This document shows positions 10,538 through 22,430 of a stretch of DNA of 64,000 bases, piece by piece. Both the position numbers and the translations under genes were made by a program. Origin of the DNA: Natrinema salinisoli (lineage in GTDB: Archaea; Halobacteriota; Halobacteria; Halobacteriales; Natrialbaceae); NCBI RefSeq assembly GCF_020405205.1, contig NZ_CP084469.1, forward strand, positions 2,170,001 to 2,234,000, in the 5' to 3' direction. How positions within the stretch are numbered: the stretch's first letter is position 1; each line of letters starts with the position of its first letter. The notes under the pieces were generated by a model. The model did no database searches. It saw nothing but the letters and a program-made list of their open reading frames with translations, and was not told the DNA's origin.

Positions 10538-12220
10538 ATGTCTCGAGACGAACCACTCTGGTCGGAGACCTACGACCGGTTCGGGATTTCCGAGACGCTC
10601 GAGCCCTATCCCGACCAGCCGGTCCACTGCTTCCTCGAGGACGCCGCGAGCGAATACACAGAGCAGGGTCTCGTCCAGTTCGGCGAGCGGTACCGCTATC
10701 CCGAGGTGCTGGCGGACGTCGACCGACTGGCGACGGCACTGCGCGAGCGCGGCGTCGAGAAGGGGCGTCGCGTCGCGACGATCCTGCCGACGTCCGTCCA
10801 GTTCGTCGTCGCCTCGAACGCCGTCTCGCGGGCCGGCGGCGTCCACGTCCCGAACGATTTCCTCGACGCCGAAGCGGACCTCCGCGACCGGCTCGAGCGA
10901 AGCGACCCAGACGTATTGATCAGCCGCGGCGAACACCGCGAACTCGTTTGTTCGCTCGCGGAGGACCTCGATATCGGTGACGTCATCCTCACGTCGCTGG
11001 CTGATTACTCGGCGGATCCGCCGGCCGACCACGAGACCGTCGACGGAGCCGAGTGGCTACCGTCGGTCCTCGAGGGAACCGAACGAGCGCCCCCGGACGT
11101 CGATTTCGACGTCGAGAACGACGTCCACACGTTGCTCTTCACCGGCGGCACGACCGGCCGGCCGAAAGGGTGTCTCCTGACGCACCGAAACCTGGTGGCC
11201 AACGCCTTGCAGGCTGTCGCCGTGCAGTCCCAGCTCGCGGAGATACTCCGCGGCAGCGAGGCGGCGGTGATGGCGCTGCCGATGTATCACGCCTACGGCT
11301 ACTCGATCACGAACTGTCTGCTCGAGCTCGCCCTCGACGTGTTGCTCGTCCCCGACGCGCGGAATACGGCGCTGATGGGCGACCTGATCGAGACCCACGA
11401 GCCGCTGGTCGTGTTCGGCGTTCCGACCCAGTTCACGGACCTCGTCGACGAGGAGCTGCCGGCGGGCGTGTTCGGCATCGCCGGCTCCGCACCTCTGGCG
11501 AACGAAACGAAATCAGCCTTCGAGCGCGAGGCCGGCGGCATCTCTCAGGGGTACGGCCTCTCCGAGATGTCCCCGCTCACTCACTTCGACGTCCACGGCG
11601 TTTACGGCCTTCTGACGAGCTCGTCGGACGAGAGCGGTCTCGACCATCCGTCCGTCGGCGTTCCCGTTCCGGACACGGACGTCCAGCTCCGCGACGTGGA
11701 CTCGGGTGCGGAGATCCCCCTCGAGCGGGCTGCAGCGAAAGAACTCGAGGGCGAGCTGCTGGTAACCGGTCCGCAGCGGATGAAGGGGTATCTCGACGCC
11801 GATTCGGAGCCGTTCGACGAAGAAGGCTACGTCGCCACCGGCGACGTCGCGAAAGTCGATTCGTCAGGACGGTTCTACGTCGTCGACCGCGTCAAGCACA
11901 TGATCAACGTCTCCGGATTGAAGGTGTATTCCGAGACAGTCGACGAGGTCCTGTACGGTCTCGAGGGCGTCAGACGACCCGCGACGATCGGCGTCCCAGA
12001 CCCGGAGCGGCCCGGGAGCGAACGGGTCCACGTCGTCATCGAACCGGAACCCGACGCCGACCTTACCGCCGCCGACGTCGTCGACCACCTCGAGGGGGCG
12101 GTCCCGGAGCACGCGATGCCGGCCGAGGTGACCTTCCTGGAGTCGATTCCTCTGACTGATATGAAAAAGACGGACAAGGAGGTGTTGCGAAAGCGCGTGA
12201 TGGCGACCAAAGACGCGTGA
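10538..12220 (+). CDS. Fatty-acid/aryl-CoA ligase, ANL superfamily
   Basis: A 560-residue acyl-adenylating enzyme that activates a carboxylic acid with ATP and transfers it to CoA. The P-loop LLFTGGTTGRPKG is at about 199-211, the A5 motif GYGLSEMSP at about 338-346, the hinge/A8 region VDRVKHMINVSG near 448-460, and a C-terminal TDMKKTDKEVLRK with the A10 lysine near 545. The substrate is not readable from sequence. The surrounding genes (SCP2 proteins, acyl-CoA dehydrogenase) point to lipid or branched-chain acid metabolism. Start ATG at 10538 fits the family N-terminus. Confidence 0.9.
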   Translation: MSRDEPLWSETYDRFGISETLEPYPDQPVHCFLEDAASEYTEQGLVQFGERYRYPEVLADVDRLATALRERGVEKGRRVATILPTSVQFVVASNAVSRAGGVHVPNDFLDAEADLRDRLERSDPDVLISRGEHRELVCSLAEDLDIGDVILTSLADYSADPPADHETVDGAEWLPSVLEGTERAPPDVDFDVENDVHTLLFTGGTTGRPKGCLLTHRNLVANALQAVAVQSQLAEILRGSEAAVMALPMYHAYGYSITNCLLELALDVLLVPDARNTALMGDLIETHEPLVVFGVPTQFTDLVDEELPAGVFGIAGSAPLANETKSAFEREAGGISQGYGLSEMSPLTHFDVHGVYGLLTSSSDESGLDHPSVGVPVPDTDVQLRDVDSGAEIPLERAAAKELEGELLVTGPQRMKGYLDADSEPFDEEGYVATGDVAKVDSSGRFYVVDRVKHMINVSGLKVYSETVDEVLYGLEGVRRPATIGVPDPERPGSERVHVVIEPEPDADLTAADVVDHLEGAVPEHAMPAEVTFLESIPLTDMKKTDKEVLRKRVMATKDA

Positions 12221-13275: not shown

Positions 13276-13848
13276 ATGACCGACGACCAACTCGTACGGC
13301 GGATCGACGCATCGCTCGAGAAACCCGACGCGGAACTCGAAGCCGACCTGCCGGACTTGCTCGACGAAATGGCCGGCCGAACCGATGACCTCGTCCGGGT
13401 GTATCCGGAGACGTTCGGTCGGGTGACCGATCGAATGGAGACGATGGACATCGCGTCGTTCGTCGCCGCGAATCCCGACACCGCCGACCAGTTTCAGGAG
13501 TTGCTCTGGGCCGGCATGAACGTCCTCGTCGAGACCTCGCCCGAGGTCCGGGAAGAAATCGACGACGACATCACCGTCACCTTCGAGGCCGAAGACTGCC
13601 CGATGGTGGGTCACCTCGAGGTCGACGCGGACGAGCGGACGATCCGCGGCGGTGCGGGTCGGCTGGACGACGCGATGCTCGAGATTACAGGCCCGGCGGA
13701 GACGCTCGTCGGCCTCATCGTCGGGAGCGTCGATCCGATTCAGGGCTACATCCAGCAGCGCTACGAGATGGACGGGCCGGTTCACAAGGGGACCCGCCTC
13801 GCCCCGATCATGACCTCGCTGTCGGAGCAGGTCCCCGCGGAGTCCTAG
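13276..13848 (+). CDS. SCP2 sterol-binding-like domain protein
   Basis: A 190-residue acidic protein. The C-terminal half (about 85-190), with DDDITVTFEAEDCPMVGHLEVD and GPAETLVGLIVGSVDPIQGYIQQRYEMDG, resembles the SCP2 lipid-carrier fold, where a hydrophobic tunnel binds acyl chains or isoprenoids. The N-terminal part is helical. It ends 1 bp before the acyl-CoA dehydrogenase start, so the two are an operon and probably share a lipid substrate. Confidence 0.75.
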   Translation: MTDDQLVRRIDASLEKPDAELEADLPDLLDEMAGRTDDLVRVYPETFGRVTDRMETMDIASFVAANPDTADQFQELLWAGMNVLVETSPEVREEIDDDITVTFEAEDCPMVGHLEVDADERTIRGGAGRLDDAMLEITGPAETLVGLIVGSVDPIQGYIQQRYEMDGPVHKGTRLAPIMTSLSEQVPAES

Positions 13849-13849
13849 G

Positions 13850-15055
13850 ATGCGCCTGACGGACGATCAACGGGCGTTTCGCGACGACCTCCGGGCGTAC
13901 CTCGAGGACGAGATCGACCCGGTCGTCGACGAGCTGGATCGGAACGGACCGATGGTGCGCGACGAGCTGGAGGGCTATCTCGACGATCTGGCTTCCCTCG
14001 GGATCGGCTTCGCGCCCGACACCGTCGATCGGTACTTCGGCGACGTCCGGCGGTTCGCGATCGCCTCGGAGGAGATCAGCCGCGTGTGGCCGAGCCTGAA
14101 CGTCGCCCTCCAGATGTCCTCTCCTTCGCTGTTCGTCCGGTTTGCGGCCGACGAGACGCGTCGGGCGCTGCTGCCGAAACTCGAGAACAACCGCTGTATC
14201 GGCTGTCTCGCGGTGACCGAACCCGACGGCGGCTCCGATACGGCCCGTCCCAACACCGTCGCGAGACGGGACGGCGACGAGTTCGTCCTCGACGGCGAGA
14301 AGGTCTGGGTGGGGAACGCGGGGATCGCCGACGTCGCGCTCGTCGTCGCACGCGACGAATCCGCGGACGCTCGAGACCTGTTCCTGGTCGATCGCGAGAA
14401 CGCCACGTACGAGACCGAGGCGATGGACACGCTCGGGTGGAAGGGCGTCCCGAACGGTCGAGTCATACTCGACGACGTCCGGATCCCGGTCGAGAACCGG
14501 TTCTCGACCATCTTCAGCGAGGCCATCGCCGAGGGGTACGACGTCCACGAGATCGTTCCCTTCCCCGAGGGCGTCAGCCAGCTGTTCCTCGAGCACACGC
14601 CGCTCAACGTCACGTTCTCGTTCATGCGGACGGGGATGGCGTTCATGGCCGTCGGGATCATGCGGGCGGCGTTCGAGGACGCGCTGGAGTACGCACGGGA
14701 CCGGGAGACTTTCGGGGACCCGATCGGCAAACACCAGCTCGTCCAGGAGAAACTCTACGACGTCCGGGCGGCGATCGAGGCCTCCCGCGGTCTCGCTCGC
14801 AGTGCCGCCGAAGCCCTGGTCGACGGGGATCCCGACGCTCGATTGCTCTCCTCGCTCGCGAAGGGATACGCCTGCGAGCGCTCGATCGAGGCGACCGGCG
14901 ACGCGCTGCAGGTCCTCGGCGCTGCGGGGCTCGACCCCGAAAACCGCATGGAGCGCTACTATCGCGACGCTCGCGTGATGACGATTCCGGACGGCACCAC
15001 CGAGATCCAGAAGCTCATCGTTGGCAAGGAACTGACCGGGTTGAGCGCCTACTGA
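13850..15055 (+). CDS. Acyl-CoA dehydrogenase family flavoprotein
   Basis: A 401-residue acyl-CoA dehydrogenase fold: N-terminal helical domain, the FAD/substrate segment CLAVTEPDGGSDTARPNT, the ETFGDPIGKHQLVQ helix and a C-terminal IPDGTTEIQKLIVGKEL. In medium-chain enzymes the residue just before that GT is the catalytic glutamate; here it is D381. Some family members use another base, so activity cannot be excluded. It follows the SCP2 gene directly (stop TAG, one base, ATG). A role in oxidising a CoA thioester made by the nearby ligase is inferred from context only. Confidence 0.9.
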   Translation: MRLTDDQRAFRDDLRAYLEDEIDPVVDELDRNGPMVRDELEGYLDDLASLGIGFAPDTVDRYFGDVRRFAIASEEISRVWPSLNVALQMSSPSLFVRFAADETRRALLPKLENNRCIGCLAVTEPDGGSDTARPNTVARRDGDEFVLDGEKVWVGNAGIADVALVVARDESADARDLFLVDRENATYETEAMDTLGWKGVPNGRVILDDVRIPVENRFSTIFSEAIAEGYDVHEIVPFPEGVSQLFLEHTPLNVTFSFMRTGMAFMAVGIMRAAFEDALEYARDRETFGDPIGKHQLVQEKLYDVRAAIEASRGLARSAAEALVDGDPDARLLSSLAKGYACERSIEATGDALQVLGAAGLDPENRMERYYRDARVMTIPDGTTEIQKLIVGKELTGLSAY

Positions 15056-15953: not shown

Positions 15954-16682
15954 TCAGAAGAGAAACCGCGAGTCGACGTTCCCGGAGATCTCGCCGAGAC
16001 GGGCCGCCGCGTCGGAGTACTGGAGGATCTTCTGCATGTAGCCATCGATCTCGAAGTCGCCGGCCATCAGCATGTCGATGACATCACCCTCGCCGCGGAC
16101 GAGCGTCTTCCACCGCTCGTAGTCCCCGACGAGTCGGAATCCGTACTCCAGCTCGTCTCTCTCCGTGACCGTTTCGACGCCCCGACACTCGCCGTCGTGG
16201 AGATCCAGATACGCGTAGACCGTGTCGCCGTCGGCGACGTTCTCCTCGAGTTGCGCGATCAGTGCTGCGAGGAGGTCAGGCAGTTCCGCCCGGAGTTCCG
16301 GCCACAGCCGATCCGGGAGGTCCGCCATCGCCGTCGCCAGAATCTCGTCGGTGACCCGCTCTTCCAGCGACCCGTTGCGGGAGTCGACGCTCTCGCGGAC
16401 GTCCGTCGGTGCGTCCGCGAGGAGGGATTCGATTTCCGCCTCGGAGCGCTCGGCGAGCATCTCCTCGACCGCTGCGACGATCTCCGGCGGCAGATCGCCG
16501 ACGGTATTGGTCTCGAGCGGAACGTTCTCGATCTGGAAAACGAACGAGCCGTCGAACTCTATCCCCCATCCGGCGGACTCCGCCGCGTATTCGTCGTCCG
16601 CGTTGATCGCATTCCGGTACGCCTCGAGCCACGGCTGTGTCGGAAAGTACTGTTCGATCGGTCGCAGTCGTTGCGTGCTCAT
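15954..16682 (-). CDS. SCP2 lipid-transfer-like protein
   Basis: A 242-residue acidic protein. The C-terminal part (about 150-230) has the SCP2 look: DGDTVYAYLDLHDGECRGVE, a central FRLVGDYERWKTLVRGEGDVIDMLMAGDFEIDG block and a final helix. Such domains bind hydrophobic ligands. It is transcribed away from the R2lox operon that starts 263 bp to the right, so the two may share a regulatory region. It is the second SCP2 protein within 3 kb. Confidence 0.75.
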   Translation of the reverse strand: MSTQRLRPIEQYFPTQPWLEAYRNAINADDEYAAESAGWGIEFDGSFVFQIENVPLETNTVGDLPPEIVAAVEEMLAERSEAEIESLLADAPTDVRESVDSRNGSLEERVTDEILATAMADLPDRLWPELRAELPDLLAALIAQLEENVADGDTVYAYLDLHDGECRGVETVTERDELEYGFRLVGDYERWKTLVRGEGDVIDMLMAGDFEIDGYMQKILQYSDAAARLGEISGNVDSRFLF

Positions 16683-16945: not shown

Positions 16946-17992
16946 ATGACGGACGGATTTCAGGCGGAACGGATCGACACGACGAGCAAGTGGTACGACC
17001 TCTTCCAGAAGGGGGTCGAACTCGGCACCTGGAACGTCGAGAAGCTGTTCGAGGAGGTCGGCTTCGAGGAGGATCGCGAGATCTGGGCGTCGCTCGAGCC
17101 CGGCGAACGGACACAGCTCCGATATCTGCTCTCGGGCTTTCTCGACGGGGAGTTCGCGGTCGGCGAGGACGCGAGTCATCATCTCCAGCGCATCATGGGA
17201 GCTCCGTGTTTCGACGACAACGAGGAGATGGAGATGTACATGACGATGTTTACGCTGACCGAGCACAAGCACACGCAGTTCCTCGACGTCTACATGCACG
17301 AGGTGATGGGCGAACAGGACACGTTCGCCGAACAGAATCCGAAACGCGGCGGTGCCCGGATTCCGATCGTGCAGGCGACCGGATTAGGCGAGGTGTACGA
17401 TCGGCAGGGCCAGCTGACCGCCAGGGCGGCCCACTCGCAGGATCCCGTCGACATCGCGAAGGCGCTGACGGTGTATCACATGATCGTGGAAGGGCTCCTC
17501 GCCCGGGGCGGCTTTTACTCGATCAACAAACTGTCGCGGAACGCGCCGCTGCCGCTGTTGAATCACGGCTTCAAGTTCATCAGCACCGACGAAGGACGTC
17601 ACATCACGCACGGCGTCGAGGCGCTGAGCGAACTGATCGCGAAGGAACGCGCCGGCGAACCGGAGTTCCAGGGCGTCAGTCAGGCCATCGTCGACGTCCT
17701 CTACGAGAACGTGGGATCGGTGGCGGACTTCGGATATATGTTCACCGACGCCGTCGACGACCCCCTCGAGATCGAGTTCGACGACCTCCTGATGCGGGTC
17801 GGGCGTCTCATCGACGGACAGTTCAACGAGGCGCTCGACCTCGACGTCGACCACCACAGGATCATCGGCATCGTCGCCGACCGCCATCGGGAGTGTCTCG
17901 AGACGGACATCGACGCGGAGCTTCGGGAGTACCGGGAGCGCTACGAGCGCACACGCGGTGTCGCCGCCGACGGAGGTGGGGACCGTGACTGA
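16946..17992 (+). CDS. R2-like ligand-binding oxidase (R2lox-type Mn/Fe or diiron protein)
   Basis: A 348-residue ferritin-fold protein commonly labelled ribonucleotide reductase beta. The metal ligands are E69 (FLDGEFAV), E106 and H109 (LTEHKHTQ), E182 (YHMIVEGLL), and E216 and H219 (STDEGRHI). V72 and Y177 sit where R2lox enzymes form their Val-Tyr ether cross-link, and no radical-transfer C-terminus of true R2 subunits is seen. This favours R2lox, a two-electron oxidase that binds a long-chain fatty acid in known structures. It heads an operon with a small acidic protein and a 2Fe-2S ferredoxin. The substrate is unknown; lipid-related neighbours fit. Confidence 0.85.
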   Translation: MTDGFQAERIDTTSKWYDLFQKGVELGTWNVEKLFEEVGFEEDREIWASLEPGERTQLRYLLSGFLDGEFAVGEDASHHLQRIMGAPCFDDNEEMEMYMTMFTLTEHKHTQFLDVYMHEVMGEQDTFAEQNPKRGGARIPIVQATGLGEVYDRQGQLTARAAHSQDPVDIAKALTVYHMIVEGLLARGGFYSINKLSRNAPLPLLNHGFKFISTDEGRHITHGVEALSELIAKERAGEPEFQGVSQAIVDVLYENVGSVADFGYMFTDAVDDPLEIEFDDLLMRVGRLIDGQFNEALDLDVDHHRIIGIVADRHRECLETDIDAELREYRERYERTRGVAADGGGDRD

Positions 17993-18272
17993 CGATCCCG
18001 ATCTGAACGAACTGTCCCGGGGTGCGGCGTTTACCGCCTCGGAGGACGAGGTGATCGAGGCGATCGAAGACGCCGCCGACGAACTCGAGCAGAGTTTCGA
18101 GGAGGTCCGGGAGAACGTCGCCTACATCATGGACTCGACGTTCGACGACGACGGCGTCAGTACGTCGTTCAACGAGAGCGTCAGCGGTGCCAGCCTCGAG
18201 CACGACGCGGTCGGTACGGGCGACCCGCGTCTGGAGGCGCTGGAACTGTACAAACTCCGCCAGCGACTGTAG
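17985..18272 (+). CDS. Small acidic helical protein of the R2lox operon
   Basis: A 95-residue protein read from a GTG at 17985 that overlaps the R2lox stop by 8 bp, so translation is coupled. The sequence is acidic and mostly helical (SEDEVIEAIEDAADELEQSFEEVREN) with a C-terminal LEALELYKLRQRL helix. No family is recognised. Its tight position between an oxidase and its likely electron donor suggests an assembly, coupling or regulatory subunit; this is inference. Confidence 0.75.
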   Translation: MTDDPDLNELSRGAAFTASEDEVIEAIEDAADELEQSFEEVRENVAYIMDSTFDDDGVSTSFNESVSGASLEHDAVGTGDPRLEALELYKLRQRL

Positions 18273-18581
18273 ATGTACGAGGTAACATTTCATTTCGAGA
18301 GCGGGACGGAAACAGTCGACATCGATCCGGACGAGTACGTCCTCGAGGCCGCCGAGCGCGCCGGTCTCGACCTGCCGCACTCCTGTCGAAACGGGATGTG
18401 CACGTCGTGTGCCGGGGAGTTGCTCGACGGTGAACTCGACGGCAGCGAGGGGACGGCGCTCTCCGCCGACCAGGCGGCTGACGGCTACGTCCTGCTGTGT
18501 TGTTCGTACCCGCGAGCGGACAGCGAGATCCGGGTCGGCGAACGGATCCAGAACGAACTGCTCGGTCTCGACGCGCTCTGA
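18273..18581 (+). CDS. 2Fe-2S plant-type ferredoxin
   Basis: A 102-residue ferredoxin with the plant-type cluster cysteines C38-x4-C43-x2-C46 (HSCRNGMCTSCAG) and a fourth, C76, in VLLCCSYP; C77 is an extra neighbour. Length is close to that of standard plant-type ferredoxins and lacks the long insertion typical of the main haloarchaeal ferredoxin. Its ATG abuts the previous stop codon. It is probably the electron donor of the R2lox-type oxidase, or an acceptor in the acyl-CoA dehydrogenase context. Confidence 0.9.
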   Translation: MYEVTFHFESGTETVDIDPDEYVLEAAERAGLDLPHSCRNGMCTSCAGELLDGELDGSEGTALSADQAADGYVLLCCSYPRADSEIRVGERIQNELLGLDAL

Positions 18582-21626: not shown

Positions 21627-22292
21627 CTAGAGCGACCGATCGTCCGGATATACCGTGTTCTCGATGAGCGTTCTGACGCCGCGACGGAACCGCTCCGACG
21701 CCGCGTTCTGGGAGATGCCGAGTCGCTCGCCGAGTTCGGCCAGAGAACAGGCCCGCGGAATGTCGAGATAGCCGGCGTCGACGGCGGTAACGAGCGCCTC
21801 GAGCTGCCGGTCGGTCACCCTGTACTGAGTGTTCGATCCCGAGCCGCCGGTCCCGGATTTATCGTACAACCGTCGGAGCTCGACGTTCAGATCGTTCTCC
21901 ACGAAGAAGGAATGAAACCGCTCGACCGCCTCGTTGCTGGGGAACGCGATGCGGAAGTACCACCCCTCGTGAGTCGCGGTCACCTCCTGTGGGATGCCTC
22001 CTTCTTCGATCACGTTCGGATAGACGCTCGCTTGATGCCCTTCGGGCGTCAGTTCGACATGGTAGAGGCGGCGGCCCTCGACGTCGGTCACTCGTGAGGA
22101 AGCGGTGATGGTCGGATCGGTCTCGAGACCGGCGTCGAACGCGTCGATCTCGTCGCCGTTGACCCAGAAGAGCATCCGGTGGTCGCCGTCCTCCGTCAGA
22201 TCCGACCGTTTCCACGTGATCTCGATGTCGGGGGCGTGCGATAGCGTCTCGCGTAGAACGGGGTAATCGACCCAGAACGTAGTGAGGAGCAT
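21627..22292 (-). CDS. Bat-type HTH_10 transcription regulator
   Basis: A 221-residue member of the HTH_10 family. The N-terminal domain (about 1-150) is the variable sensor portion. The HTH starts at VTDRQLEALVTAVDAGYLDIPR and continues to LGISQNAASERFRRGVRTLI. The ATG at 22292 (MLLTTFWVDYPVL) is chosen over an upstream in-frame ATG at 22349. It is convergent with the ACR3-type transporter, 40 bp away. Confidence 0.85.
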   Translation of the reverse strand: MLLTTFWVDYPVLRETLSHAPDIEITWKRSDLTEDGDHRMLFWVNGDEIDAFDAGLETDPTITASSRVTDVEGRRLYHVELTPEGHQASVYPNVIEEGGIPQEVTATHEGWYFRIAFPSNEAVERFHSFFVENDLNVELRRLYDKSGTGGSGSNTQYRVTDRQLEALVTAVDAGYLDIPRACSLAELGERLGISQNAASERFRRGVRTLIENTVYPDDRSL

Positions 22293-22430
22293 AGTGACGA
22301 TTCGTCGGTGATAGGGCTCAATGGGGTTTTCCCGTTTCGGCTTGAGCAAGTACTACGACCACTCTGTTACATAAAGGACGTGAATACTTACGCATCGTAG
22401 CTATCCGACGAACCCGCCGATTAACCGATA

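Follow-up and report, generated by a model that had tools for sequence, protein, structure and literature searches.

A three-gene unit of an R2lox-like oxidase, a small conserved protein and a [2Fe-2S] ferredoxin in Natrinema salinisoli and other haloarchaea

Described R2lox proteins and their gene neighborhoods

R2lox proteins, such as those of Mycobacterium tuberculosis, Geobacillus (GkR2loxI) and Sulfolobus (SaR2lox), are reported to modify themselves upon O2 activation (PMC6399176), with the four electrons needed to activate one O2 coming jointly from the Mn/Fe site and the Tyr-Val cross-link (PMC4118035; PMC6399176). Their physiological function was considered unidentified as of 2019 (PMC6399176), and the original prediction for the locus described here likewise treated it as unknown, a view that is partly outdated by a 2024 report of alkane degradation in crude GkR2loxI lysate (PMC10867098). 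According to that report, the activity was only slightly reduced in the E202A/H205A double ligand mutant, the gene cluster also encodes alcohol and aldehyde dehydrogenases as well as beta-oxidation, and Kumar et al. (2020) was cited for a Halorientalis R2lox gene whose expression rises with hexadecane (PMC10867098). Moreover, several haloarchaea are described as growing on long-chain alkanes (PMC11948995).

The locus of Natrinema salinisoli combines an R2lox-like oxidase gene with genes for a 95-aa conserved protein (MID) and a ferredoxin. The oxidase shares with the known R2lox proteins the fold, the six metal ligands, the Val/Tyr pair and a lipid-oxidation context, but unlike them it has a constant MID neighbor and its own [2Fe-2S] ferredoxin. 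As annotated in the deposited records, the neighbors of a Mycobacterium plasmid R2lox include a CoA ligase, an alcohol dehydrogenase, an acyl-CoA dehydrogenase and a P450, with no ferredoxin in the stretch seen, and a Geobacillus plasmid R2lox adjoins an adenylate-forming enzyme. Among six Rhodococcus plasmid records found, the three inspected (L168, L169, L170; annotations as deposited) all place an NDMA-dependent alcohol dehydrogenase, a NAD(P)/FAD oxidoreductase that is probably a ferredoxin reductase, and FdxA beside R2lox, while an aldehyde dehydrogenase and SCP2 occur in two of the three and a fatty acid-CoA ligase in one, within the stretch seen. These operons thus resemble the trio loci in joining R2lox to a ferredoxin and an alcohol dehydrogenase and, in two of three cases, to an aldehyde dehydrogenase and SCP2, but they differ in having an FdxA (Fer4) ferredoxin with its own FAD oxidoreductase, no annotated MID, and an R2lox distant from the trio clade in our tree. 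The trio ferredoxin, originally proposed as the first hint of electron supply to R2lox, is not the only such hint, as the Rhodococcus plasmids also display R2lox with a ferredoxin and a probable reductase.

No description of the trio or of MID was found in the literature searched on R2lox and haloarchaea, alkanes, RNR or ferredoxin, which covered subscription papers to a limited extent. What is considered new is the conservation of the trio, the MID protein and an electron carrier dedicated to the oxidase; the alkane idea had already been published (PMC10867098). For the re-reduction of R2lox and its possible turnover, the trio and its lipid-binding neighbors offer a concrete system to reconstitute.

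The oxidase clade and its two partner genes

The oxidase gene lies at 16946..17992 on the + strand of the window (the whole analyzed stretch of 64,000 nucleotides) and encodes a ferritin-fold di-metal oxidase of 348 aa. Sequence alignment places four Glu and two His at the R2lox ligand positions (E69, E106, H109, E182, E216, H219) and, judged on the residues, the cross-link pair at V72/Y177. The six ligands and the V72/Y177 pair, already noted in the original prediction, are invariant in 22/22 aligned clade members. The other R2lox sequences that were aligned, from haloarchaea and bacteria, carry the identical set, whereas it is absent from E. coli NrdB and NrdF and from a Streptomyces protein annotated as RNR beta. 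The residue following the first ligand is F, R, H, Q or T in the trio clade vs E in known R2lox.

A search of NCBIfam returned R2lox models as the best matches to the oxidase (7.5e-30), with RNR beta models far weaker (2.2e-6), and Geobacillus R2lox was the top phmmer match in the PDB (2.8e-16). However, the protein scored under the curated cut-off of all five NCBIfam R2lox models (best 104.2 bits vs 194); we therefore do not treat it as a standard R2lox but call it R2lox-like, a member of a divergent clade. Structure comparison with its AlphaFold model (pLDDT 84.7, pTM 0.86) gave R2lox in the first 27 rows (Z 28.7 to 26.6, with 3ee4 at 28.7), followed by RNR R2 rows at Z 25.9 and lower; identity to the R2lox structures was about 23% over the fold. 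Phylogenetic analysis grouped 25 trio-clade rows on one branch (100/100) and RNR on another, in a tree with long branches and only two RNR rows from which three near-copies (L080, L083, L084), one gene cut by a contig end (L106) and one remnant (L107) were left out. The deeper position of the clade among the R2lox groups is not secure in this tree. Altogether, the oxidase falls in a separate, divergent clade of R2lox outside RNR R2. The assignment as R2lox-type, which had hinged on the protein not falling inside genuine RNR R2, is thus upheld by residues, fold and tree, but has to be narrowed to a divergent clade by the profile scores.

Haloarchaea have many R2lox-family genes, frequently annotated as ribonucleotide reductase beta subunits. 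The genome of the strain (4.70 Mb) holds three further ones (L077, L078 and L079, at C1 1.74, 2.33 and 3.40 Mb), all carrying the full ligand and V/Y set, and in other haloarchaea the paralogs L151, L153, L154 and L164 have an aldehyde dehydrogenase gene 1.6 to 3.2 kb away.

The gene arrangement was found as originally described: the MID gene (17985..18272, + strand; GTG start at 17985, stop at 18270-18272) overlaps the oxidase gene by 8 bp and abuts the ferredoxin gene. An alternative MID start at 17958 (104 aa) is possible, but the homologs favor 17985. The differences at the three codon positions (0.16/0.12/0.46) indicate that MID is coding and under purifying selection. The protein has a helical N-terminal part, a variable middle and a near-invariant C-terminal helix containing DPRLEA, which is its best-conserved section, and it could be assigned to no known family. 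Its predicted model was poor (pLDDT 62.4); Foldseek with this model gave nothing better than E 2.2, and a PDB sequence search nothing better than E 0.23. Pfam searches with 22 MID members returned weak, scattered matches in which individual members hit unrelated families (best E 1.8e-4), with the MmoB/DmpM-type effector family absent from these matches and from those in the PDB. A role of MID as a docking, effector or assembly subunit of the oxidase may be proposed.

The third gene (18273..18581, + strand) encodes a plant-type [2Fe-2S] ferredoxin of 102 aa that passes the TIGR02008 model (93.9 bits, cut-off 81.15) and fails the YfaE model NF007985 (30.1 bits, cut-off 75). Its cluster cysteines C38, C43, C46 and C76 are invariant in 17/17 sequences, and a C-terminal tail around Q-x-x-L-L-G-L-D is conserved as well. 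The ELLGLD-like tail is absent from the eight other Fer2 proteins of the same genome that match the trio profile (ten were fetched), although one of them, L175, has a partly similar end (VQSELVENPWK); the comparison is no more than suggestive. Of the proteins of this genome, L175 and L179 come closest to the trio ferredoxin profile; they are encoded by closely spaced plant-type ferredoxin genes at C1 2.875-2.878 Mb.

Of 292 sampled genomes of the class, 99 had some match to the oxidase and only 18 had the trio clade; these 18 carry 22 full oxidase copies (E 2.1e-89 or better; the next match, at 2.3e-19, is a fragment). MID is adjacent at 22/22 of these loci and the ferredoxin at 19/22 (the exceptions being L066, L070 and L072). 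One of the alignments (A3) leaves out L056 and L060. A second set, made of genome contigs, one plasmid and the window, and sharing species with the genome sample, comprises 28 intact loci once L106 (contig-end cut) and L107 (remnant) are excluded; in it MID adjoins the oxidase at 28/28 loci and the ferredoxin is adjacent at 26/28, compared with 0/55 for either gene at 55 other R2lox-family loci taken as a control. The named hosts include Natrinema, Natrialba, Haloglomus, Halocatena, Haladaptatus, Actinarchaeum, Halococcus, Halorientalis, an Ordos MAG and Natronococcus. At the 13 of 22 loci where junctions were measured, oxidase and MID genes are separated by -8 to +2 bp and, at the 11 of these with a ferredoxin, MID and ferredoxin genes by -4 to +6 bp. 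Since only 11 Fer2 matches exist in 4.7 Mb of the genome and the trio recurs with tight junctions, the linkage is more than chance, in agreement with the conserved ferredoxin linkage that the original prediction required.

MID itself was detected in 20/292 genomes of the class, namely the 18 with the oxidase clade and two with weak matches that look like chance (G037, E 5.6e-4; G249, E 8.8e-4), and in three genomes of a 392-genome phylum sample, all already known. A scan of genome contigs was pattern-based, so that it does not prove the absence of MID from bacteria. The distance correlation among oxidase, MID and ferredoxin (0.76-0.91, 17 loci) was discounted as evidence because shared descent yields it anyway, and scanning for promoters and terminators yielded no result of use in an archaeal sequence. 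In Natronococcus sp. AD-5, the set of SCP2, oxidase, MID, ferredoxin, aldehyde dehydrogenase and alcohol dehydrogenase (L160) is located on a 1.02-Mb plasmid, so the set may spread between species.

Lipid-related genes around the trio

The SCP2 genes and the acyl-CoA dehydrogenase noted near the oxidase from the outset are real. A long SCP2-like protein of 242 aa (15954..16682, - strand) is encoded divergently from the trio and scores 19.0 bits with PF02036, under the 21.3 cut-off, whereas a short form of 190 aa (13276..13848, + strand) scores 23.1 bits, over it, and is paired with the gene of a 401-aa acyl-CoA dehydrogenase (13850..15055, + strand). An AMP-forming acyl-CoA ligase (10538..12220, + strand) is more loosely linked. 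Among the 28 named loci, the long SCP2-like gene is found within about 3 kb in 25 and any SCP2 in 26; relatives of the dehydrogenases and the ligase within 7 kb number 15 (acyl-CoA dehydrogenase), 7 (aldehyde dehydrogenase), 6 (alcohol dehydrogenase) and 4 (CoA ligase). The 55 control loci gave SCP2 at 1, acyl-CoA dehydrogenase at 2, aldehyde dehydrogenase at 4, alcohol dehydrogenase at 0 and ligase at 3, in a comparison that favors the trio clade, as dehydrogenase and ligase relatives were scored at at least 150 bits with queries from trio-clade loci. These loci served as control because a PF02036 search of the genome itself returned 0 matches, the SCP2 genes scoring too weakly, and thus provided no genome-wide background.

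Most loci have the SCP2-like gene 5' of the trio in the same orientation; in the window it is divergent, and in Halorientalis it stands 3' of the ferredoxin gene. In L066/L095 the acyl-CoA dehydrogenase gene directly precedes the oxidase gene and shares its strand, Natrialbaceae loci additionally have aldehyde and alcohol dehydrogenases, and in the Ordos archaeon SCP2, acyl-CoA dehydrogenase, oxidase, MID and a thioesterase follow on one strand, with the ferredoxin absent. That SCP2 stays linked while order and orientation shift argues for a common function and not for frozen synteny, and its recurrence in rearranged order in archaea as well as in Rhodococcus R2lox operons makes this linkage more telling than originally claimed.

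A bacterio-opsin-activator-like HTH_10 regulator is encoded at 21627-22349 (- strand) of the window. In several Halorientalis loci, genes from a loosely joined cluster of this kind are oriented divergently from the oxidase gene, and they may include a regulator of the trio unit.

Proposed function of the unit and alternative explanations

The genes and their key residues, the fold class, the clade and the conserved linkage are established above. On this basis we favor, with a probability of roughly 0.6, the reading that the trio is one functional unit: an R2lox-family di-metal oxygenase driven by the ferredoxin, with a hydrophobic and probably aliphatic substrate and MID as its small partner. 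Having bound Mn/Fe (or Fe/Fe), the oxidase would use a single O2 activation to make the V72-Y177 ether link. From then on it would turn over as an oxygenase that takes two electrons per cycle, and the SCP2-like protein may help to deliver its hydrophobic substrate, probably an aliphatic (or isoprenoid) compound. Since the cross-link reaction of R2lox accounts for the four electrons that one round of O2 activation requires (PMC4118035), any further turnover would need an outside donor, for which a ferredoxin from the same transcript is a natural candidate. It would give two electrons per turnover, docking perhaps via its conserved C-terminal tail, and MID would bind the oxidase by its near-invariant C-terminal helix and couple, gate or assemble the site. 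The product would then pass to alcohol and aldehyde dehydrogenases, a CoA ligase and an acyl-CoA dehydrogenase. If so, the oxidase is a candidate entry enzyme for the long-chain alkane pathway of haloarchaea (PMC11948995), and R2lox activity may so far have been seen in crude lysate alone (PMC10867098) because a donor and a partner were missing.

Some observations count against parts of this proposal. The ferredoxin is missing at 2/28 named and 3/22 genome-sample loci, two of those three in cobalamin clusters, which suggests that it is not indispensable or is replaced by other donors at these loci. Only a minority of the loci have alcohol and aldehyde dehydrogenases nearby, and the Geobacillus alkane result comes from crude lysate, with a double ligand mutant that lost little activity (PMC10867098). 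The scores of the oxidase under every NCBIfam R2lox cut-off, the lack of any recognizable relative of MID and the poor MID model also weigh on this side.

In a bolder version, which we hold tentatively and against the odds, the unit would be an archaeal multicomponent Mn/Fe (or di-iron) monooxygenase, with MID as an obligatory effector of a new family, convergent with the coupling proteins of methane and toluene monooxygenases, and the ferredoxin as the first dedicated R2lox-type donor known. Soluble methane and toluene monooxygenases would work alike, through a di-metal hydroxylase, an iron-sulfur electron supply and a small cofactor-free partner, but they belong to a different ferritin-like branch, and MID matched none of the known effector families.

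The ferredoxin, and perhaps MID too, could instead form a system for cofactor assembly or repair, the oxidase acting once or rarely. A similar layout is found in E. coli, where the gene right after nrdB is yfaE, which encodes a ferredoxin-like protein for cofactor maintenance, so that an R2-type protein precedes a small [2Fe-2S] ferredoxin as in the trio; the self-modifying reaction of R2lox upon O2 activation would also suit such a role (PMC6399176). However, YfaE maintains a tyrosyl radical cofactor, and both the ferredoxin and the R2 families differ from those of the trio, whose ferredoxin falls far short of the YfaE model yet passes the plant-type one. As catalytic turnover is also better suited to the lipid-oxidation neighborhood and to the ferredoxin-plus-reductase operons of Rhodococcus, assembly or repair is judged an unlikely explanation.

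The unit might also modify a biosynthetic lipid (a quinone, carotenoid or isoprenoid) presented by SCP2, rather than serve hydrocarbon degradation. Bacterial UbiJ and UbiT illustrate such SCP2-type presentation of a lipid. SCP2-like genes are indeed the most constant neighbors (26/28), degradation enzymes being near about half of the loci or fewer, and some oxidase copies sit in cobalamin clusters. Nevertheless, acyl-CoA, aldehyde and alcohol dehydrogenases, CoA ligases and thioesterases recur as neighbors in both archaea and bacteria, and the patchy spread of the clade (18/292 genomes) is typical of accessory catabolism, which leaves a biosynthetic role improbable. Finally, almost no credence is left for the oxidase as an RNR R2 subunit: its Pfam Ribonuc_red_sm match (43.7 bits) and the frequent annotation of its relatives as such are outweighed by an R2lox ligand set and V/Y pair not found in E. 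coli NrdB or NrdF, by R2lox models that outscore RNR beta models by far and by the fold ranking and tree, so this identity was rejected.

In Halorientalis-type loci (L070, L072 and L076/L107), a second oxidase and MID copy is found in a cobalamin cluster, with neither ferredoxin nor SCP2, between cobN and cbiX/cbiH-type genes (L070, 9.0-10.3 kb). The CbiX-like protein beside it has a [2Fe-2S] ferredoxin-like C-terminus, and an O2-dependent corrin step for these copies would be a wild possibility. In H. regularis, the second copy is a remnant in which the first part of the oxidase is fused to the end of MID.
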